Below the pieces are notes generated by a model, which did no database searches, was not told the origin of the DNA, and saw only the letters and a program-made list of their open reading frames with translations. This document shows positions 43,795-55,727 of a DNA stretch of 64,000 nucleotides, in pieces (positions within the stretch are counted from its first letter, which is position 1; every line of letters begins with the position of its first letter). Origin of the DNA: Fuscovulum sp. (GTDB taxonomy: Bacteria; Pseudomonadota; Alphaproteobacteria; Rhodobacterales; Rhodobacteraceae). The translations under genes were made by a program, and so were the position numbers. The DNA lies in NCBI GenBank assembly GCA_035192965.1, contig CP136571.1, positions 3,180,501 to 3,244,500 of the forward strand. Reading direction: 5' to 3'.

Positions 43795-44643
43795 TTACGT
43801 CAGCATGTCCTGATAGGCCGGATGTCCACCATGCAGCTTTGCCTCGCGCTGTCCCACTGTCAGCAGCGGCAACATCAAAGCAAACAGCTCGGCCTGCGAG
43901 GAAAGCCCGCAGCGCGCATATAATTGCTTGCGAAACACCTTCACCGTCTGGCCGCTGACGCCCAGCCGCAGCCCAATCGACACCGTCGAATGCCCGCGCA
44001 GGATCAGCAGTGCCACCTCGGCCTGCCGGGGCGAAAGCCGGATCCCATGCGCATCGCCCAGCGCACGCACCAACTGCGCCACCACATTTCCCGGCGCGGC
44101 AGACTCGGCCGATAACCCCCGCCAATGCGCCTCGGCCAAGGCGATGACCACCGGCGCAATGCGGTGGCACACTTCCACCTCGCGCGCCGTGAACGGCTGG
44201 CCCGATGCTGCATCCCGCCCAAGACACAGGTTCAGCGACACATTCTCCGCAGGATAGACCATGAAAGTGATCTCATCCAGCAGGGTCGTCTGCTGGTAAT
44301 ACTCGCTGTAATATCGGCTGCGGTGAAAGGCATCCGGCGCCACATCGCGCAGGCGGTACGCCCCGGCAGGCACCCCCGACATATGCAGATCGTGATAGGG
44401 GTCCAGCAGATAGGCCCCGGCCAGATAGGTATCATCCAGCTGCGAAAACACCTGCGGATGGTCGCTTTGCCGAAACAGCACCTGAGGCGGCCCCACATCG
44501 CGATAGGCCAGCACGATCAGGTTGTCCGGGGCCACACAGCGCCGAAACCAGCCCATCAAGGCGCTCTCGAACCCCGGCGCGCCGACACGGCGGATCACCT
44601 GCGCCAATTGCGCCTCGGCACTGTTCGGCAAGGGCTGCATCAT
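43795..44643 (-). CDS. LuxR-type transcriptional regulator of the Pot/amine cluster
   Basis: A 282-residue regulator with a C-terminal GerE/LuxR helix-turn-helix (RLSPRQAEVALLILRGHSTVSIGLRLGVSGQTVKVFRKQLYARC) and an N-terminal sensory region of about 200 residues that is not a recognisable AHL-binding domain. The ATG at 44643 has AGAGAGGT upstream; a further Met follows directly. It is divergent from the potA-like gene, and a perfect 16-bp palindrome lies 8 bp before its start codon, which fits autoregulation and control of the transporter. The ligand is probably a polyamine or another amine, but this is inferred from context only. Confidence 0.88.
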   Translation of the reverse strand: MMQPLPNSAEAQLAQVIRRVGAPGFESALMGWFRRCVAPDNLIVLAYRDVGPPQVLFRQSDHPQVFSQLDDTYLAGAYLLDPYHDLHMSGVPAGAYRLRDVAPDAFHRSRYYSEYYQQTTLLDEITFMVYPAENVSLNLCLGRDAASGQPFTAREVEVCHRIAPVVIALAEAHWRGLSAESAAPGNVVAQLVRALGDAHGIRLSPRQAEVALLILRGHSTVSIGLRLGVSGQTVKVFRKQLYARCGLSSQAELFALMLPLLTVGQREAKLHGGHPAYQDMLT

Positions 44644-44651
44644 ACCTCTCT

Positions 44652-44667
44652 GGGGGTATATACCCCC
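44652..44667. promoter_or_regulatory. Perfect 16-bp palindrome, candidate operator
   Basis: GGGGGTATATACCCCC is fully self-complementary. It occupies the 75-bp gap between the divergent luxR-type gene (start 44643) and potA-like gene (start 44719). A related half, GGGGTATGG, lies at 44704-44712. LuxR-type dimers bind such palindromes, so this is a strong operator candidate for the adjacent regulator. Confidence 0.7.
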
Positions 44668-44718
44668 GCTTCGCGTCAAACTTAACCTTTGACCCTAGTC
44701 CAAGGGGTATGGGGCCGC

Positions 44719-45774
44719 ATGTCAACCGCCATCGACATCCGCAATGTGGTCAAACGCTATGGCACAACGACCGCCCTGCACGGCATTTCGCTGACCATAT
44801 CTGATAACGAATTCTTCACCCTGCTCGGCCCCTCTGGCTGTGGCAAGACCACGCTTTTGCGCTGCATCGCCGGGTTCGAAGATGTGTCCGAAGGCGAGAT
44901 ACGCCTGTTCGGGGAAAACATCGCCGGGCTGGAGCCGAACCACCGCCCCGTGAACACCGTCTTTCAGCAATACGCCCTGTTTCCCCACATGTCCGTGCTC
45001 GACAATGTGGCCTTCGGATTGAAGATGAAGGGAATGGGCACCGATGACCGCCGCCGCCGGGCAGGCCAGATGCTAGAGATGGTCCACCTTTCCGCCTTCG
45101 CCGACCGCCTCCCCGCCCAGCTTTCGGGCGGCCAGCAGCAGCGCGTGGCGCTTGCCCGCGCGCTGGCCCCAGAGCCAAAGGTCCTTTTGCTGGATGAGCC
45201 TCTTTCGGCGCTCGATCTGAAACTGCGGCAGGCGATGCGGGTGGAACTGAAATCCCTGCAAGAAGAAACCGGCATCACCTTCATCTTCGTGACCCATGAC
45301 CAGGAAGAAGCGCTGACCATGTCAGACCGCATCGCCGTCATGTCCCAAGGCCATGTCCAGCAGATCGGCACCGCCCGCGATATATACGAGGCCCCGGTCA
45401 ACCGCTTCGTCGCCGATTTCATCGGTGAGACGAACCTTCTGGAAGTGACAGTCGACAAAATCAGCGGCGGTCAGGCCAGCATCACCCTGCCGGGCGGCCA
45501 CAGGATCACCTGCCCGGCCGCCTCAGAAACCCTCGGTAAGCATCACCTGTCCATCCGCCCGGAACGTCTGTCCATCGCAGAGAATGGCGAGTTGGAGGTG
45601 ACCGTCGAACGCGTGGTCTACCTCGGCACCGATCTGCAACTCCTGACCCGTCTCGGCACGGGCGAGGAATTCCATGTTCGCCTGCAAAATTCCGCCCGCA
45701 TCGCCGTGCCCGCCCCCGGCACCCGCGTCGCCCTGCATCTAGAGGAAGGCGCGGCCCGCCTTCTGGCCGACTGA
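44719..45774 (+). CDS. Polyamine-type ABC transporter ATP-binding protein (PotA family)
   Basis: A 351-residue ATPase of the PotA/CUT-type import family. It has Walker [10 protein letters not shown], the Q-loop [23 protein letters not shown], the ABC signature [32 protein letters not shown] including Walker B, and the His switch [16 protein letters not shown]. The C-terminal TOBE domain covers about residues 270-345. The first gene of a four-gene transporter unit; its stop overlaps the permease start (TGATG). The substrate class is inferred from the partner genes. Confidence 0.94.
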
Positions 45775-46697
45775 TGGCCGGGCTCACCCCCCAAGGCGGC
45801 AAGGGCGGCGGAACAGGCTACCGCAACATCGTCGGGCCGTTGCTGCTGCCAACCTGGGCGATGATCGGTATTTTTCTTGTCATCCCCGTCCTGCTGATGG
45901 CCGTTTATTCCTTTCTTACCAAAGAATTCCGTGGCGGCGTGATCTGGGATTTCACGCTTGCCGCTTATGACCAGTTCTTCCTGAACCGTGGCCTATTCGG
46001 GGATGAACCGCCCACCATCGAATGGACCTATATCACCATCTTCTGGCGCTCGATTTGGCAGGCAGGCGTCGCCACAGTGATCTGCCTGATCGTGGGTTTT
46101 CCCACCGCATGGTTCATCGCGACCCGCCCCGCCCGCAGCCGCGCGGTCTGGCTGTTCCTGATCACGGTGCCCTACTGGGTGAATTTGCTGATCCGCACAG
46201 TCAGCCTAAAGTTCCTGATCCGCGACAACGGCCCCTTGAACGAAAGCCTCATGTCCATCGGGCTGATCGACGGGCCCCTGCCCCTCGTCAACACCAACCT
46301 CGCCGTGCAACTGGGGCTGTTCTACAGCTACCTGCCCTTCATGGTGCTGCCGATCTATGCGGCAGTCGAACGGTACAACTTCGCCCTGTCCGAGGCGGCG
46401 GCCGATCTTTACGCCAGCCGTTGGGTCACCTTGCGGGAAATCGTGCTGCCCGTAGTGAAACCCGGCATCATTGCGGGCTGCATCCTTGTCTTTGTCCCGT
46501 CGCTCGGCGCCTTCCTTGCACCCGATCTGCTGGGCGGGGCAAAGACCTTCATGATCGGCTCACTTATTGACGAACAGTTCCGCGGATCACAAGGCAACTG
46601 GCCCTTCGGCGCGGCTGCTGCGATGATCCTGATGACACTCGTCCTGATCGTGCTGCTGGCCTATGCCCGCGCGCAGGCCAAGGGAGAGGCGCGATGA
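45774..46697 (+). CDS. Polyamine-type ABC transporter permease (PotB family)
   Basis: A 307-residue permease with about six helices. The cytoplasmic EAA loop that docks on the ATPase is in [47 protein letters not shown], typical of PotB-like proteins. It begins with a short Gly-rich cytoplasmic tail. Coupled to its neighbours by a TGATG overlap before it and an ATGA overlap after it. Confidence 0.93.
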
Positions 46698-47497
46698 AGG
46701 GCGTCCGCCACTATCCAGGTTTTCTGGCCATGGCGGTGGGCTGCCTTGTCATCCTTTACGCGCCCCTGATCGTGGTGACGATCTACAGCTTCAACGACTC
46801 CGCCTCGATCACCACATGGGGCGGGTTTTCCTGGCGCTGGTATGCAGATGTCTTCACCGGCCCCGAAGCCCCGCGCTTCAAGGCGGCTGCGTGGAACTCC
46901 CTCACCATCGCGCTGATCGCGGCCACCACGGCCACCGCGATTGCCGTCGCAGCCAGCGTCGCGATGATCCGGGGGGGGCGCTTCCGGGGCAAATCCGCCA
47001 CTTTCGCGCTGATCAACCTGCCCCTCATGGTGCCCGAAATCGTCACCGCCGTGGCCTGCCTGATCTTCTTTTCCACCATCGGGCTGACCACCGGCTATAT
47101 GACCATCCTCTTGGCCCATATCACCTTTTGCATCCCCTTCGCCTATCTGCCCATCGCCGCCCGCCTTACGGGCATCGAAGAAGTTTACGAACAGGCCGCC
47201 CGTGATCTTTACGCCAGCCGCGCACAGGCGTTCCGGCTGATCCTGATGCCCCTGATGATGCCCGGCATCATTTCGGGCTTCCTTCTCGCCTTCATCATCT
47301 CGCTTGACGATTTCATCATCACCAACTTCGTCAAAGGCGCTGGCATGGAAACCTTGCCCACCGCCATCTTCGGTTCGGTCAAGCAAGGCATCAAACCCAA
47401 TATTATGGCGATCTCCACCATGATGCTTGCCGTGTCCGTGCTGTTCGTGACCCTATCCTACCTTGCCAACCGCATCGGGCAGAGAACCCGATCCTGA
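46694..47497 (+). CDS. Polyamine-type ABC transporter permease (PotC family)
   Basis: A 267-residue second permease with about six helices. The start [33 protein letters not shown] is characteristic of PotC/PotI-like proteins, and the EAA loop is in [52 protein letters not shown]. It forms the heterodimeric channel with the preceding permease, to which it is coupled by an ATGA overlap. Confidence 0.93.
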
Positions 47498-47515
47498 ACC
47501 CAACGGGAGTCATCC

Positions 47516-48544
47516 ATGAAAAAGCTGCTGACCACTGCCACCGCATTCGCCCTGCTCGCAGGCGCGGCCCAGGCCGAGGGAACCCTCTCGGTCTATCACT
47601 GGTTCGAATACATCCCGCAGGAACTGGTGGACAAATTCACCGCCGAGACCGGGATCGCCGTCACGATCGACACATATGACAGCAACGAATCCATGCTTGC
47701 CTCGCTCAAGGCGGGCAAGCTGGGCCAGTACGACGTCGCCGTTCCCGCCGATTTCATGGTGCAGATCATGGGTCAGGAAGGCATGCTCGATACCTTCACG
47801 CCCGAAGAAATGCCCAACTTCGCCAATATCGCCCCGCAATGGGTGGATGTCCCGTTTGACGCGGGCCGCAAATCCTCGATCCCCTATCAGTGGGGCTCAA
47901 CCTCATTCTCCGTGAACCGCGATGTCTATGCGGGCGACATCTCCTCGCTCGGCATCATCTTCGATCCGCCCGCCGAATTGCAGGGCAAGATCAACGTGCT
48001 CGACAGCCAGAATGAGGTACTGATCCTCGGTTCGCTCTACCTCGGCATCCCGCAATGCTCGACCGACCGCGAACAGCTCAAGGCGCTGAACGACATGCTC
48101 TTGAACGCCAAGCAGCACTGGGCATCTTTCGGGTCTGACACTGCCAAGGACGTGCTGGTATCGGGCGATGCGGCGGCGGGCATGATCTATAATGGCTTCT
48201 CCGCCAAGGCCCGGGCCGAAGGCGCGAATGTCGAATATTCCTACCCCAAGGAAGGCCACGTCCTGTGGATGGACAACATGGTTCTGCTCAAGGACGCGCC
48301 CAACCGCGACAACGCGATCAAGTTCATGAATTTCCTGCTGGATCCTGAAAACGCCGCCGCCGTCACCAACTACGCCGCCTACACATCCGGCGTCGCGGGG
48401 GTAGAGCCGTTCCTCGATGACGCCATCAAGAACAGCCCGGAAAACAACCCGCCCGCAGATGCCACCCCGGGCGTCTTTGCCCAGGCCTGCGATGCGGAAA
48501 CCCAGAAGCTCTATGATGCCATCTGGACCAACCTGAAAAAGTAA
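47516..48544 (+). CDS. Polyamine-type periplasmic substrate-binding protein (PotD/PotF family)
   Basis: A 342-residue secreted binding protein with a clear signal peptide (MKKLLTTATAFALLAGAAQA, cleavage after about residue 21). The mature start GTLSVYHWFEYIPQELVDKF and the YDVAVPADFMVQIMGQEGMLD and IPYQWGSTSFSVN segments match the spermidine/putrescine-binding group of family 1 binding proteins. The acidic and aromatic ligand residues of PotD/PotF cannot be assigned reliably by eye, so the exact amine is unknown. It lies 18 nt after the second permease gene. Confidence 0.93.
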   Translation: MKKLLTTATAFALLAGAAQAEGTLSVYHWFEYIPQELVDKFTAETGIAVTIDTYDSNESMLASLKAGKLGQYDVAVPADFMVQIMGQEGMLDTFTPEEMPNFANIAPQWVDVPFDAGRKSSIPYQWGSTSFSVNRDVYAGDISSLGIIFDPPAELQGKINVLDSQNEVLILGSLYLGIPQCSTDREQLKALNDMLLNAKQHWASFGSDTAKDVLVSGDAAAGMIYNGFSAKARAEGANVEYSYPKEGHVLWMDNMVLLKDAPNRDNAIKFMNFLLDPENAAAVTNYAAYTSGVAGVEPFLDDAIKNSPENNPPADATPGVFAQACDAETQKLYDAIWTNLKK

Positions 48545-48627: not shown

Positions 48628-49392
48628 ATGTCCTTTCCCATCGCTCTCTGGCAGGGCCCATCGCCCGGCGGATCGGATGACGTTGCCTTCGCCGCCCTCG
48701 ACTCCGCGCTGCGCGCCGCCGCCGCGATGGGGGCGATCACCCTGGTCGCGCCAGAAATTTTCCTTCCCGGCTACAACCAGCCCGACATCCCCGCCCGCGC
48801 CCAACCGCGCGGCGGCCCTTGGCACCAGCGCCTAGCCACCCTCGCCCGCGCCCATGGCTGCGGCATTGTCATCGGCTATGCCGAACGTGACGGCGATGGC
48901 GTCTACAATTCTGCTGTCGCCCTCAACGCCGACGGGCGCGAGATCGGCCATTACCGAAAGGTACAACTTTTCGGCCCGCGCGAAAAATCCATCTTCGCAC
49001 CCGGTGATGCAGTGTCCACCTTCGATCTTGGCGGCCTGCGCGCCGCCATGCTGATCTGCTATGACGTGGAATTCGCCCCCCTCGTCCGCTCTCTGGCCGA
49101 GGCCGGGGCAGACCTGATCCTTGTTCCCACGGCGAACCCCGAACCCAACACCCATGTCAGCCGGATCGTCGTTCCGGCCCATGCCATCAACCATTCCGTC
49201 ACCATCGCCTATGCCAACTATTGCGGCACCGAGGGCGACATCACCTATTGCGGCGCCTCGGTCATCGCCGCCCCCGATGCAGCGATCCTCGCTTCTGCCG
49301 GCCCCGGCCCGGCCCTGCTGATCGCCGATATCGACCATCAGCCCGATCCCGCCCTGATGCAGACCCAGCTTCACGATTACCGCCCGCTCTGA
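48628..49392 (+). CDS. Carbon-nitrogen hydrolase (nitrilase superfamily)
   Basis: A 254-residue amidase of the nitrilase superfamily. The Glu-Lys-Cys triad is visible as Glu43 (LVAPEIFLPGYN), Lys111 (HYRKVQLFGPREKSIFAPG) and Cys144 (AMLICYDVEFAPLV). The fold ends with AYANYCGTEGDITYCGAS and a short C-terminal strand. Substrates of this group include omega-amides, N-carbamoyl amines and indole-acetamide-like compounds; in this cluster an amide or carbamoyl product of amine breakdown is likely. It lies between the transporter and the amine-dehydrogenase-like gene, 8 nt before the latter. Confidence 0.92.
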   Translation: MSFPIALWQGPSPGGSDDVAFAALDSALRAAAAMGAITLVAPEIFLPGYNQPDIPARAQPRGGPWHQRLATLARAHGCGIVIGYAERDGDGVYNSAVALNADGREIGHYRKVQLFGPREKSIFAPGDAVSTFDLGGLRAAMLICYDVEFAPLVRSLAEAGADLILVPTANPEPNTHVSRIVVPAHAINHSVTIAYANYCGTEGDITYCGASVIAAPDAAILASAGPGPALLIADIDHQPDPALMQTQLHDYRPL

Positions 49393-49400
49393 GGTACACC

Positions 49401-51491
49401 ATGCCCAAGGACACGCGCGACAGCCGCTATGACATCCTGTTCGAGCCCCTCCGCATCGGGCCGAAACTGGCCAAGAACCGTTTCTATCAGGTTCCCCACT
49501 GCAACGGCGGCGGCTACCGCGACCCATCAGCCGTGGTCGAAATGCGCCGGACCAAGGCCGAAGGCGGCTGGGGCGTGATCTTCACCGAACAGACCGAGAT
49601 TCACCCCACCTCTGAGATCACCCCCTTTATCGAACAGCATCTCTGGGATGACCGCGACATCCCCGCGCTGGCCCGGATGGCCGAGGCGATGAAATCCCAC
49701 GGCGCACTCGCAGGCATCCAGCTTGCTTATTCCGGCATCAACGGCCCCAACCTCTATTCCCGCGAAGTTCCCCTCGCCGTCTCGGGTGGCCCGATCCTGA
49801 CCTTCACCTCTGATCCCGTGCAAGCGCGCACCATGGACCGGGAAGATATCCGCGACTTGCGCCGCTGGTTCCGCAACGCCTTTCGCCGGTCACAGACCGC
49901 AGGCTTTGACCTGATCTGCCTCTACGGCGCACATGGCTTTGGCATCCTGCAACATTTCCTTTCCCGCAACACCAATCACAGAACCGACGAATACGGTGGC
50001 AGCTTGGAGAACCGCGCCCGCTTCCTGCGCGAGATCGTCGACGAGGCGCGCGAAGAAACCAAGGGCGAGCTTGCCATTTCCCTGCGCCTTTCCTTGCACG
50101 AAGCAGGCGAGATGGGCTTTTCCAACACTGAACTCCGCGACTTCATCGAAATGCATGGCGACCTTCCCGATATCTGGGATCTCGCCCATGGCACGTGGGA
50201 AGCCTGCTCCGGCACCTCCCGCTTCAAACCCGAAGGCGCGCAGGAAGACCTTGTAAAGGGCATCAAGACGCTCACCAGCAAACCCGTCGTCGGCGTCGGC
50301 CGCTTCACCTCTGCCGATGCCATGGTGCGGCAAATCAGGTCCGGCGTACTCGATTTCATCGGCGCTGCCCGCCCCTCCATCGCCGATCCTTACCTGCCCA
50401 AGAAGATCAAGGAAGGCCGCTTCGACGACATCCGCGAATGCATCGGCTGCAACATCTGCGTCTCGGGCGACATGACCCAAGGCATCAGCCGCTGCACCCA
50501 GAACACCGCCTTCATGGAGGAATGGCGCAAAGGCTGGCACCCCGAACGGGTCCACCCCAAGGGAAAATCCGAAAGCGTGCTGATCGTGGGCGCAGGCCCG
50601 GCGGGGTTGGAGGCTGCGCATATCCTTGGCAAGCGCGGTTATCAGGTTACGCTGGCCGAGGCCACCACCACCCTTGGCGGCCGCGTCGCCCGTGAACGCA
50701 TCCTTCCGGGCCTTTCCGCATGGGGCCGCGTGGCCGATTACCGCGCGGGCCAGATCGCCCCCATGCCCAATGTACAAACCTATCTCGACAGCCGCCTGAC
50801 GCCCGATGACATCCTGTCTTTCGGCATCGAACATGTTGCCATCGCCACAGGCTGCCACTGGCGGCGCGATGCGGTGGCGCGCCTTCACCTCCACCCGATC
50901 CCCACCGATCCCAACATGCCGATCTTCACCCCGGATGATCTGATGGCAGGCGGCGGCCCCAAAGGCAGCAATGTCCTGCTTTACGACGATGACCATTTCT
51001 ACATGGGCTCGGTCATGGCCGAACTTCTGGTCGCACGCGGCTGCACGGTGGATTTCGTGACCCCTGCGGTGAAGGTCGCCGAATGGACTGACAACACCCT
51101 TGAACAGGCCACGATCCAGCGCCGCCTGGCCGGCCTTGGTGTGCGCCTGCATCTGTCGCACGCGCCTGACCGGATCCACGCAACCGGGGCTGATGTCACC
51201 TGCACCTGGAACGACCAAACCCGCCAGATCGCCTGCGATGCTGTGCTGATGGTCACCGCGCGCATCCCAGAAGACGCCCTCTTCCATGACCTGAAGGCCC
51301 GCGACTGGAAAGGGGCAGGCATCGCCTCGCTCAAATTGATCGGCGATGCTGCCTCCCCCGGCCCCATCGCCTGGGCCACCTATGCCGGTCGGCGCTATGC
51401 CGAAGAACTGGATCAACCTGACATCGGCGATGCGCTTTCCTTCCGGCGCGAGATTGCGGCCCTCCTGCCACCCTCTCTTCTGACCCCATGA
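49401..51491 (+). CDS. Trimethylamine-dehydrogenase-family flavoprotein, histamine-dehydrogenase-like
   Basis: A 696-residue FMN / 4Fe-4S amine dehydrogenase. The barrel begins YDILFEPLRIGPKLAKNRFYQVPHCNGGG, with Cys34 at the position that carries 6-S-cysteinyl FMN in trimethylamine dehydrogenase. Fe-S ligands are Cys347, Cys350, Cys353 and Cys365 in CIGCNICVSGDMTQGISRC. The C-terminal half has an ADP/NAD-type Rossmann fold (VLIVGAGPAGLEAA). The substrate-cage positions read Gln64, Trp259 and Asp357 where trimethylamine dehydrogenase has Tyr60, Trp264 and Trp355. Gln, Trp and Asp is, from memory, the histamine dehydrogenase set, so a cationic primary amine is favoured over trimethylamine. The neighbouring Pot-type transporter fits this. 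Confidence 0.88.
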   Translation: MPKDTRDSRYDILFEPLRIGPKLAKNRFYQVPHCNGGGYRDPSAVVEMRRTKAEGGWGVIFTEQTEIHPTSEITPFIEQHLWDDRDIPALARMAEAMKSHGALAGIQLAYSGINGPNLYSREVPLAVSGGPILTFTSDPVQARTMDREDIRDLRRWFRNAFRRSQTAGFDLICLYGAHGFGILQHFLSRNTNHRTDEYGGSLENRARFLREIVDEAREETKGELAISLRLSLHEAGEMGFSNTELRDFIEMHGDLPDIWDLAHGTWEACSGTSRFKPEGAQEDLVKGIKTLTSKPVVGVGRFTSADAMVRQIRSGVLDFIGAARPSIADPYLPKKIKEGRFDDIRECIGCNICVSGDMTQGISRCTQNTAFMEEWRKGWHPERVHPKGKSESVLIVGAGPAGLEAAHILGKRGYQVTLAEATTTLGGRVARERILPGLSAWGRVADYRAGQIAPMPNVQTYLDSRLTPDDILSFGIEHVAIATGCHWRRDAVARLHLHPIPTDPNMPIFTPDDLMAGGGPKGSNVLLYDDDHFYMGSVMAELLVARGCTVDFVTPAVKVAEWTDNTLEQATIQRRLAGLGVRLHLSHAPDRIHATGADVTCTWNDQTRQIACDAVLMVTARIPEDALFHDLKARDWKGAGIASLKLIGDAASPGPIAWATYAGRRYAEELDQPDIGDALSFRREIAALLPPSLLTP

Positions 51492-51894: not shown

Positions 51895-53556
51895 TTGCAG
51901 AACTTGTCAAAGATTGCGCCGGATCAGGTCGCATCCACCCCCCGCTTCCGCCCGACGCGGCCCGAAATCCCGGCGCTCGCCCTTGCTCTGGGCGTGTCGC
52001 TGTTCATCATGGCGGCTCACAACCTCACCTTCTGGCACCGCGCCTGGATCGTCTTTGACGGCAATATCCGTCAGGTCGCCGGATGGGGCATCGCCGTCTG
52101 GATGCTCACACTGCTCACGGTGTCGTTCTTCGGCTTCCGCTGGCTTCTCAAACCCGTCGCAGCCTTCCTGCTGATCCTTTCGGCGGTGACATCTTATTAC
52201 ATGGACAGCCTCGGCATCATCATCGACCGCGAGATGATCCAGAACGCCATGCTCACGACGATGACGGAATCCAAACATCTTATTACCCTCGGGTTCCTCA
52301 CGCATGTCGCGATCTGGGGCCTCTTGCCCGCTGCCGCCGTGCTGTGGGTCCGCATCCGCCCGACACCGCTGTTCACGAATATCTGGCGCTGGGCGCTCAC
52401 GGTGATCCTGGCACTGGCCATCTTTGCCGGCGCGCTGTTCAGCGACTTCAAGGCTTATTCCGCCGTGGCCCGCGAACGCAAGGATGTGTTGGCCAGCTAT
52501 CAGCCCGGCGCCGCCATCGCCGGGGCGGCGCGTTATTCCAAGATGATGCTGCGCACCAAAAACGTTACCGTGGCCCCGCTGGGTGCCGATGCGCGCAAGG
52601 GCCCGCTGATCACCGCCGCGGCCAAGCCGGTTCTGACCGTTGTCTTCGTGGGCGAAACCGCGCGGGCGCAGAATTTCGGCCTGAACGGCTATGACCGCCC
52701 CACCACCCCCGAACTGGCCCAGCGCGATGTTGTGAACTTCACCGACGTCTCCTCCTGCGGCACTTCAACCGCCGTGTCAGTGCCCTGCATGCTGTCGAAC
52801 CTCACCCGCGACGGCTATTCCTATGACAATGGCATCCGGCAGGAGAACCTGACCGATGTCCTGTCCCACGCCGACATCGACGTTCTCTGGTGGGATAACA
52901 ACACCGGCGACCAGGGCACCGCCGGCCGCGTGGCAAAGGCCCGCCGCATGACTGCTGCCGATGATCCCGCCGCCTGCGCACAGGGCGAATGCACCGATGC
53001 GGTCTTCCTGAACCCACTCAAACAGGCCCTGCCCACCCTGAAACGTGACACAGTCCTGTTCATTCACATGATCGGCAGCCACGGCCCCGCCTATTACCTC
53101 CGCTACCCAGCCGAGGCAGAGGTCTTCGCCCCCGCCTGCCGCACCGCCGAATTTGCCGATTGCACAACCGATGAAATCGTCAACGCCTACGACAACTCCA
53201 TCCGCTTTACCGATCACGTCATCGCCCAGACGATCGACCTTCTGGCCGCGCAATCCGATGTCATTCCGGCCGTCTTCTTCCTGTCAGATCACGGGGAATC
53301 CCTTGGTGAAGATGGCCTCTACCTTCATGCCGCGCCCTATTTCCTTGCCCCGGACACGCAAACGCAGGTGCCGATGGTGATGTGGCTTTCCCCGCTCTAT
53401 CAGCAGGAACTGAAGGTCGACCAAGCCTGCCTGAAGATCAAAGCTGATACGGAACTGAGCCAGGACAACGTCTTCCACACCGTCCTTGGCCTGATGGACG
53501 TGGTCACCACGGTGCGGGATGACAGTCTCGATCTTGCCACCACCTGCCGCAGCTGA
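51895..53556 (+). CDS. Phosphoethanolamine transferase (EptA-like)
   Basis: A 553-residue inner-membrane enzyme that moves phosphoethanolamine from phosphatidylethanolamine to lipid A, making the surface less anionic. Five N-terminal helices (about residues 25-190) precede a periplasmic sulfatase-fold domain. Metal and catalytic motifs are VGETARAQNFGLNGYDRPTTP, the nucleophile Thr in SCGTSTAVSVPCMLS, HMIGSHGPAYYLRYP and FLSDHGESLGE. Cysteine pairs expected for periplasmic disulfides are present. TTG at 51895 is the start because the next in-frame ATG lies inside the first helix; AGGA stands about 10 nt upstream. It has no adjacent two-component system. Confidence 0.92.
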   Translation: MQNLSKIAPDQVASTPRFRPTRPEIPALALALGVSLFIMAAHNLTFWHRAWIVFDGNIRQVAGWGIAVWMLTLLTVSFFGFRWLLKPVAAFLLILSAVTSYYMDSLGIIIDREMIQNAMLTTMTESKHLITLGFLTHVAIWGLLPAAAVLWVRIRPTPLFTNIWRWALTVILALAIFAGALFSDFKAYSAVARERKDVLASYQPGAAIAGAARYSKMMLRTKNVTVAPLGADARKGPLITAAAKPVLTVVFVGETARAQNFGLNGYDRPTTPELAQRDVVNFTDVSSCGTSTAVSVPCMLSNLTRDGYSYDNGIRQENLTDVLSHADIDVLWWDNNTGDQGTAGRVAKARRMTAADDPAACAQGECTDAVFLNPLKQALPTLKRDTVLFIHMIGSHGPAYYLRYPAEAEVFAPACRTAEFADCTTDEIVNAYDNSIRFTDHVIAQTIDLLAAQSDVIPAVFFLSDHGESLGEDGLYLHAAPYFLAPDTQTQVPMVMWLSPLYQQELKVDQACLKIKADTELSQDNVFHTVLGLMDVVTTVRDDSLDLATTCRS

Positions 53557-53577: not shown

Positions 53578-55557
53578 TCAGACGGCAACCCCGGCGCGCA
53601 GACCGTCAAAAACCGCCTCTTCCGCCGTGCGCGGGGCCAGACAATCGCCCGCCATGTGCAACTCGATCCCCAGCGCTGTCACAGCCTCTGACAGGTCATC
53701 CACCGGTTGGTGGCCAAGGCACAGCACCAGCGTGTCAACACCCTCCACCTCAACCGCCTCCCCCGACGGCACATGTTGCAGGAACACACTACCGCCAGCC
53801 GTGCCGAACAGCCGCATGTAAGGCCGCACCTCCACCCGCAAACGGTGCAACTCAGCAGCGATGTTGTCGCGCACATAGAGCGGCAGCACCTCACCCGCAT
53901 GCAGCCCGTTGACTGCAAGTGTCACCGCGGACCCCGCCTTCGCCAGCCCCTCCGCCACGCCCGGACCGATCCAGTCGCAGCGCCAATCCGCAATCACCAC
54001 CCGTGCGCCAACCTTCACCTCGCCGCGCAGCACCTGCCATGCGGTCACCACCTGCACCGTTCCATCTTGGGGCATGTCCGCTGGCACATGCGGCACCGCC
54101 CCCGTGGCCAGGATCACCGCATCCGGTCGCTCCGACGCCAGCAATTCAGCCGTCACTCGCTGCCCCCGGCGCACCCGCACTTGTGCAAGTTCCATCTCGC
54201 GCAGCAGGTTGGTGACGATCCCGCCGAACTCCGCCCGCCTTGGCAACAACTGCGCCAACAGCGCCTGCCCACCCGGTTGCGCCGCCGCCTCATAGAGCGT
54301 GACCGCATGCCCGCGCTTCGCCGCCGTCACGGCGGCCTTCATCCCCGCCGGGCCACCGCCCACAACCATCACCCGCTTCTGCCGCGGCGCAGGCACAAAC
54401 TGCCCGTAAACCAGTTCCCGCCCCGTCTCAGGATGCTGGATGCAGGACACCGGCAAACCCTTGTGGAAATGCCCGATACAGGCCTGATTGCAGCCGATAC
54501 AGGCGCGGATGTCGTCCACCGCCCCCCGCGCCGCCTTGGCGGGCATCTCCGGATCGGCGATCAACGCCCGCGTCATGCCACAGACATCCGCCAGCCCCGC
54601 GGCCAGAATGGCCTCGGCTTCCTGCGGCTGGTTGATCCGCCCGGCCACAAAGACCGGCACTTTCAACGCCTTGCGGAACGCCCCTGCATCCGGGGCCACA
54701 TAACCCGGCGCATAGGCCATCGGCGGCGCAATATGAACCGCCCCCCCGACCGAGGCTGATGTGCCTGTCGTCACATTCACATAATCAAGGTCCGCCTCCA
54801 GCGCGACACAGGCCGCCTGCGCCTCCTCCCCGGTCAGCCCCTCATCATCCCGCTCGCCCGCGCTGATCCGCAGCCCGATGACAAAATCCTCGTCCGTCTG
54901 CGCGCGGATGGCCTGCAGCACCTCGCGCAGGAACCGCAGCCGCCGCTCCTCATCCCCGCCATAGCCATCACTGCGCCGGTTCACCCGGGGGTTCAGGAAC
55001 TGCGCCGGCAGATAGCCATGGCTTGCCACCACCTCCACCCCGTCCAGTCCCGCCGCCCGCATCCGCCGCGCCGCCGCCGCATAGCCCGCCACGATCTCAT
55101 CAATCAACGGCAGGGTCAGGGCGCGCGGCATCACATGGAACCGCTCATTCGGGCTGACGGATGGCGCATAGGCCACTGCCAGCAGCCCATCCGCGCTTTC
55201 CATGATTTCGCGCCCCGGGTGAAACAGCTGTGAAAACACCGTCACCCCTTCGGCATGCAGGGCATCCGCCAGCCGCCGATAGCCGGGAATACACGCATCC
55301 GTCGTCGCCATCAGCAGATGCGATGTATAGCGCGCCGTCTCATGCACCCCTGCCACCTGCGTCACGATCAGCCCGACACCACCCCGCGCCCGCGCCAGAT
55401 GATAAGCGATCAGCGCTTCATTGACCGTGCCATCCACCGGCAGCACGGTGTCATGCCCGGTCGACATGATCCGGTTGCGCAGGGTTGCGCCGCGAATGCG
55501 CAACGGCGCGAAAAGATGCGGAAATCCCGTCCCTGATCGCGTCTGTTCCTCCGGCAT
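53578..55557 (-). CDS. NADH:flavin oxidoreductase / 2,4-dienoyl-CoA reductase-like Fe-S flavoprotein
   Basis: A 659-residue protein with an FMN barrel, a 4Fe-4S site and a C-terminal FAD/NAD domain. The barrel starts LFAPLRIRGATLRNRIMSTGHDT and has no cysteine at the covalent-FMN position, so FMN is bound non-covalently. The Fe-S ligands are in CIGCNQACIG and VSCIQHP, and the Rossmann motif is VMVVGGGPAGMKAA. In general layout it is a sister of the amine dehydrogenase encoded 2 kb away. The GHDT and YHLARARGGVGLIVTQVAGVHETARYTSH segments remind me of N-methylproline/betaine demethylases, but this cannot be settled by eye. ATG at 55557 is chosen. Confidence 0.88.
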   Translation of the reverse strand: MPEEQTRSGTGFPHLFAPLRIRGATLRNRIMSTGHDTVLPVDGTVNEALIAYHLARARGGVGLIVTQVAGVHETARYTSHLLMATTDACIPGYRRLADALHAEGVTVFSQLFHPGREIMESADGLLAVAYAPSVSPNERFHVMPRALTLPLIDEIVAGYAAAARRMRAAGLDGVEVVASHGYLPAQFLNPRVNRRSDGYGGDEERRLRFLREVLQAIRAQTDEDFVIGLRISAGERDDEGLTGEEAQAACVALEADLDYVNVTTGTSASVGGAVHIAPPMAYAPGYVAPDAGAFRKALKVPVFVAGRINQPQEAEAILAAGLADVCGMTRALIADPEMPAKAARGAVDDIRACIGCNQACIGHFHKGLPVSCIQHPETGRELVYGQFVPAPRQKRVMVVGGGPAGMKAAVTAAKRGHAVTLYEAAAQPGGQALLAQLLPRRAEFGGIVTNLLREMELAQVRVRRGQRVTAELLASERPDAVILATGAVPHVPADMPQDGTVQVVTAWQVLRGEVKVGARVVIADWRCDWIGPGVAEGLAKAGSAVTLAVNGLHAGEVLPLYVRDNIAAELHRLRVEVRPYMRLFGTAGGSVFLQHVPSGEAVEVEGVDTLVLCLGHQPVDDLSEAVTALGIELHMAGDCLAPRTAEEAVFDGLRAGVAV

Positions 55558-55727
55558 GTCATGGCTCCAGTTCCCGCTGCGCCCTTTGCTACACCGCCCC
55601 GCCCGCCCGCGCCAATCCGCGGGCGACGCCACCTTGCTCCGGCGCGACGGTACGACCGCCCGGAATCTCGCCGGTCAATGTCCGACTTCGCCGATGCAGC
55701 ACAGAACACCGTCACGCAAAAGACGCG

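Follow-up and report, generated by a model that had tools for sequence, protein, structure and literature searches.

A predicted histamine dehydrogenase lacking the triad acid, encoded in a conserved operon of Rhodobacteraceae

A stretch of 64,000 nucleotides from Fuscovulum sp. (contig CP136571.1; referred to as the window) was analysed around the gene at 49401–51491 (+), hereafter hadh. By alignments, pocket signature and an AlphaFold model, this gene is a variant histamine dehydrogenase (HADH) gene of known kind, whose activity and substrate are predicted. Its product is probably a cytoplasmic enzyme that would start histamine catabolism, encoded in a dedicated operon. A sequence-only reading of this DNA had described an amine dehydrogenase with an HADH-like pocket. 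The conserved operon with its operator, the link to a Hin-like cassette and a missing triad acid are additions to that reading, which had overlooked the acid loss (Ala268-Cys269).

The hadh ORF is uninterrupted and translates to 696 residues. The best match of the product in the PDB was the HADH of Rhizobium sp. 4-9 (6DE6; 1086 bits, E = 0, 686 residues, ~68% identity). Further matches were Nocardioides simplex HADH (3K30; 842 bits), the 6-HPON amine oxidase HisD of Pseudomonas geniculata (6L6J; 664 bits) and trimethylamine dehydrogenase (TMADH; 484 bits). At the sequence level the resemblance to 6DE6 is far beyond chance, and with identity this high the residue correspondences between the two are not in doubt. 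The structural superposition called for in the sequence-only reading was carried out with an AlphaFold2 model built from a 25-sequence alignment (pLDDT 87, pTM 0.86). It gave TM scores of 0.96 on 6DE6 (68% identity), 0.94 on 3K30 (56%) and 0.92 on 2TMD (38%), and the modelled chain adopts the overall HADH fold. In a quick tree, the hadh product grouped with Rhodobacter and Tabrizicola sequences, and 6DE6 fell inside a sister group of Shinella, Salipiger and Mesorhizobium.

Residue equivalences were taken from a five-way alignment. Cys34, read earlier as the covalent-FMN site, aligns with Cys30 of TMADH and Cys30 of the Rhizobium enzyme, the site of 6-S-cysteinyl FMN. Similarly, Cys347, Cys350, Cys353 and Cys365, read as the Fe-S site, correspond to TMADH Cys345, Cys348, Cys351 and Cys364, and the 4Fe-4S ligand set CX2CX2CX11C is present. 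Gln64 aligns with TMADH Tyr60, and Asp357 stands at the place of N. simplex Asp358 and Rhizobium Asp354. Both had been placed correctly, with offsets of +4 and +2 from the Cys landmarks cited in support of the alignment. However, the retained cage tryptophan was found to be Trp266 (TMADH Trp264, N. simplex Trp267, Rhizobium Trp263) and not Trp259 as had been claimed; the +2 offset itself predicts Trp266. Trp259 belongs to the DIWDL strand further upstream, and its counterpart in TMADH is a different tryptophan.

The roles of substrate-site residues have been described for the Rhizobium and N. simplex HADHs (PMC10180351). Every residue listed for these two solved enzymes is kept in the hadh product (Q64, I73, F76, E78, N114, Y175, H178, F180, W266, D357), which bears out the HADH-type pocket (Gln, Trp, Asp) proposed earlier. 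Seven of them (Q64, I73, F76, E78, N114, W266 and D357) make up the Gln-Ile-Phe-Glu-Asn-Trp-Asp pocket shared with the N. simplex enzyme. Where the two solved enzymes differ (Rhizobium Phe176, N. simplex Tyr181), the product sides with Rhizobium (Phe180). It is also like the Rhizobium HADH in length, fold, FMN cysteine and 4Fe-4S ligands. Identity to the N. simplex HADH is lower (~56–60%). HisD shares the fold and the 4Fe-4S cluster, but in it the FMN cysteine is replaced by Ala, Gln64 by Glu and Asp357 by Val.

The pocket was then followed in an alignment of 99 rows (the window, 80 loci, 13 genome loci, four reference sequences and one outgroup). A 17-position signature, CQIFENFYHFWCCCCDC, was common to 82 of the 85 sequences in the group of at least 65% identity, and that of 6DE6 was identical. 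The other three deviated at one or two sites. None of the 10 paralogues (~47–55% identity) carried the signature; they differ at Gln64, Ile73 and Asn114.

The genes upstream of hadh were examined next. As the sequence-only reading had noted, a PotABCD-type importer (44719–48544) and an amidase (48628–49392) lie directly upstream and co-directional. The start of hadh is 8 bases past the amidase stop, and a GAGG overlaps that stop codon. The importer set is complete: a PotA-type ABC transporter ATPase (44719–45774, +; above the cut-off of NCBIfam TIGR01187 potA), PotB-type (45774–46697, +) and PotC-type (46694–47497, +) permeases that are syntenic in relatives, and a PotD-type periplasmic amine-binding protein (47516–48544, +). 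The last matched E. coli PotD and other polyamine binders in the PDB (E 1e-54 to 1e-34). When it was aligned with these binders, the acidic and aromatic PotD contacts were seen to be partly retained; equivalents of E. coli Trp34, Glu36, Tyr37, Glu171, Trp255 and Asp257, which we take to be contact residues, are kept, and that of Asp168 is lost. This pattern would fit a cationic amine, without deciding which. The amidase (48628–49392, +) belongs to the nitrilase superfamily (Pfam CN_hydrolase, 7e-40), with amidase 5JQN/3HKX as best PDB match (E 4e-38). It carries the motifs PEIF, YRKVQLFG and LICYDVEF, and Glu43, Lys111 and Cys144 are its likely catalytic residues. Its substrate may, as a guess, be an amide of the ring-opening branch.

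A LuxR/GerE-type regulator gene (43795–44643, −; Pfam GerE) is divergent from the operon, and syntenic homologues of its product, 47–83% identical, are found beside hadh in relatives. In the luxR–potA gap lies a perfect palindrome, GGGGGTATATACCCCC (44652–44667). It is preceded by ATACCTC-N3, and GGGGTAT follows at 44704–44710, 52 bp downstream. The luxR start is likely the ATG at 44643; a longer, TTG-started ORF reaches 44679 through the palindrome, with which an automatically called gene would overlap. All 39 luxR-bearing sequences contained GGGGGTATATACCCCC, 28 of them perfectly and the rest with 1–2 mismatches, whichever gene follows. ATACC precedes it, and a GGGGTAT half-site 51–53 bp after it (~five helical turns) was likewise present in 39/39. 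A search of the 4.2-Mb genome returned this single perfect copy. We propose GGGGGTATATACCCCC as the LuxR operator.

About 30 Rhodobacteraceae loci keep the order luxR (divergent), then potA-potB-potC-potD-amidase-hadh, and some relatives retain just luxR with amidase-hadh, or luxR with hadh. The relatives nearest 6DE6 (Shinella, Salipiger type) differ from the window in carrying a LysR gene and another PotABCD set.

The catalytic triad of TMADH is Tyr169, His172 and Asp267. In alignment its third residue corresponds to Asp270 of N. simplex and Asp265 of Rhizobium HADH, both of which have a Tyr-His-Asp triad (PMC10180351). The hadh product keeps Tyr175 and His178 but lacks the acid. It reads W266-E267-A268-C269, with Ala268-Cys269 where the Rhizobium enzyme has Asp-Cys and the Nocardioides enzyme Gly-Asp. 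In saturation mutagenesis of Rhizobium Asp265 no substituted clone was active, and changing N. simplex Tyr181, Gly269 and Asp270 to the Rhizobium residues affected both substrate inhibition and redox potential (PMC10180351). Of the 50 sequences in the Rhodobacter-type group, 33 have Ala at position 268 and the others Gln, Asn, Asp, Glu, Gly or Ser, and the tree shows at least 5 changes at this site; the sister group has Asp or Glu throughout. Cys269 is invariant in both groups. His233 was found in 44/44 sequences without the acid at 268, the rest having mostly Asp, or Glu. This association might reflect compensation or shared descent, and the strong raw counts do not establish coupling of 233 and 268, since they come down to only 4–5 independent pairs.

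It is rather unlikely that the clade has drifted: without the acid the enzyme would be much slower, or would act on another imidazole or aromatic amine, the HADH scaffold alone being kept. Ala268-Cys269 removes the acid at a site where no active substituted clone of the Rhizobium enzyme was obtained, and the variability of position 268 points the same way. Against drift, the remaining pocket and cofactor residues hardly vary across dozens of genomes. Operon and operator likewise show tight conservation, and HADH sequences with and without the acid have the same gene context. This conservation argues for a protein under selection with the same pocket. As pocket and operon are still conserved, a working enzyme is expected; lacking the acid, it may well differ in its pH, redox or inhibition behaviour rather than be inactive. 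We put forward, tentatively, a Rhodobacteraceae histamine system (LuxR switch, palindromic operator, PotABCD importer) in which the HADH may work without the supposedly essential triad acid, possibly compensated by co-varying His233 or Glu267.

Genes for an FAD-monooxygenase, RidA, DUF1028, an M20 ArgE-like hydrolase, LysR and an aldehyde dehydrogenase recur near hadh in relatives. At four loci in non-alpha Pseudomonadota the order is monooxygenase-RidA-DUF1028-M20. The hinF-hinL-hinH-hinG genes of P. aeruginosa (PA5393–PA5390) form a histamine-induced operon (PMC8231116). Their products, an FAD-monooxygenase (EC 1.14.13.5), an enamine deaminase, an amidase and an amidase of EC 3.5.1.8, convert imidazoleacetate to aspartate (PMC6467879). 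Matched by gene order and these published descriptions, the hadh-linked cassette appears hinFLHG-like, close in order and kind. On a plasmid of the betaproteobacterium Ideonella dechloratans, hadh-aldehyde dehydrogenase-LysR lies 9 kb from monooxygenase-RidA-DUF1028-argE (annotated as NAD(P)/FAD-dependent oxidoreductase, RidA, DUF1028 and argE), and the HADH has the same Q/I/F/E/N/W/D pocket. The Pseudomonas hin system (HinA, HinC, HinD, HinFLHG, HinK) is alike in its aldehyde dehydrogenase, FAD-monooxygenase, RidA, DUF1028 and M20 genes and in their order. For histamine entry and deamination it uses the permease HinA and the aminotransferase HinC, whereas the hadh clade would use PotABCD and HADH; the clade of the window also has the LuxR regulator, unlike Pseudomonas hin.

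Co-occurrence was counted in 296 genomes of the window's family, with HADH called at at least 65% identity. The monooxygenase was present in 49/49 genomes with HADH and in 38/247 without it (Fisher 2e-32, a value that ignores phylogeny, in a sample of nearly one genome per genus). In 36 cases the pair lay less than 12 kb apart. Genomes with only a paralogue had the monooxygenase in 7/32 cases, like those with neither (31/215). In a phylum sample it was present in all nine HADH genomes.

In the genome of the window, a monooxygenase homologue 66% identical to the hadh-linked gene of relatives is found at C1:2812776, RidA (84%), DUF1028 (65%) and LysR (56%) at C1:3649646–3651823, and an M20 enzyme (61%) at C1:741178. 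HinF/L/H/G-like genes are thus all present, at three dispersed loci unlinked to hadh; when these genes were checked for the LuxR operator, none carried it. An aldehyde dehydrogenase gene adjoins luxR in the nearest relatives and is absent from the window. A search of the window's genome for a close orthologue of it found none, the best matches being 41–45% identical. The amidase might stand in for the M20 enzyme: among the loci the two are mostly mutually exclusive, but both are present in L052, L059 and L064.

These genes bear on the choice of substrate. The sequence-only reading had suggested a pathway for a cationic amine such as histamine, agmatine or a polyamine. The present analysis supports it, and histamine is singled out by the co-occurrence of the HADH clade with HinFLHG-like genes, those for the conversion of imidazoleacetate to aspartate. 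We consider histamine the probable substrate. Weighing against it are the dispersal of the downstream genes in this genome and their lack of the operator, the failure to find a close aldehyde dehydrogenase orthologue, and the missing triad acid. It is unlikely that the substrate is instead a linear cationic amine (agmatine, putrescine, 1,3-diaminopropane) brought in by a polyamine importer; in such a route the amidase would act further along, on a guanidino or amide intermediate. The PotD-type binder is indeed nearest to polyamine binders, the amidase has a distant match to N-carbamoylputrescine amidase, and the secondary substrates of characterised HADHs include agmatine, 1,3-diaminopropane and putrescine (PMC10180351). 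However, a polyamine route has no need of the monooxygenase cassette that accompanies HADH in 49/49 genomes, and the pocket is the same as in the Rhizobium enzyme, which prefers histamine. A trimethylamine or dimethylamine dehydrogenase is highly improbable: fold, FMN cysteine, 4Fe-4S cluster and the equivalents of Trp264, Tyr169 and His172 are shared with TMADH (2TMD/1DJN; TM 0.92 to 2TMD), but identity is only ~38–44%, Asp267 has no counterpart, and the aromatic cage is disrupted by Gln64 in place of Tyr60 and Asp357 in place of Trp355 (Tyr60/Trp264/Trp355 there, Gln64/Trp266/Asp357 here).

With histamine as substrate, the system would work as follows. The LuxR-type regulator would bind GGGGGTATATACCCCC and switch on potABCD-amidase-hadh, and histamine would be imported by the PotABCD-type transporter. 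HADH would oxidise it at the covalent FMN to imidazole acetaldehyde and ammonium, and the electrons would travel from FMN via the 4Fe-4S cluster to an electron-transfer flavoprotein, the acceptor suggested by TMADH. An aldehyde dehydrogenase encoded elsewhere would make imidazoleacetate, which the dispersed HinF/L/H/G-like enzymes would convert to aspartate.

Histamine dehydrogenases serve as histamine sensors for food, and our literature search found no paper on the pathway that they serve in nature or on an importer. According to the genome evidence they share a pathway with the Hin enzymes; it also suggests an ability to use histamine in many Rhodobacteraceae from freshwater and marine habitats. 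Natural variants at a residue thought indispensable bear directly on substrate inhibition, which is a problem with the sensor enzymes.

Some further observations were made. A group II PLP amino-acid decarboxylase gene lies directly or closely downstream of hadh in L052 (12067–13401), L064 (12074–13405) and L067 (12100–13395); these strains may therefore both make and consume the amine. In a search of a plasmid collection, a HinF-like monooxygenase was found on many Klebsiella plasmids (105 of 243 records), which suggests plasmid-borne use of histamine or imidazoleacetate. Directly 3′ of hadh in the window is a gene for an EptA-type phosphoethanolamine-lipid A transferase (51895–53556, +); it is next to hadh in only some close relatives and so is probably outside the system. 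It is followed by a gene for a second Fe-S/FMN old-yellow-enzyme protein (53578–55632, −), close to the BaiCD and mycofactocin OYE_2 families and below the cut-offs of both.
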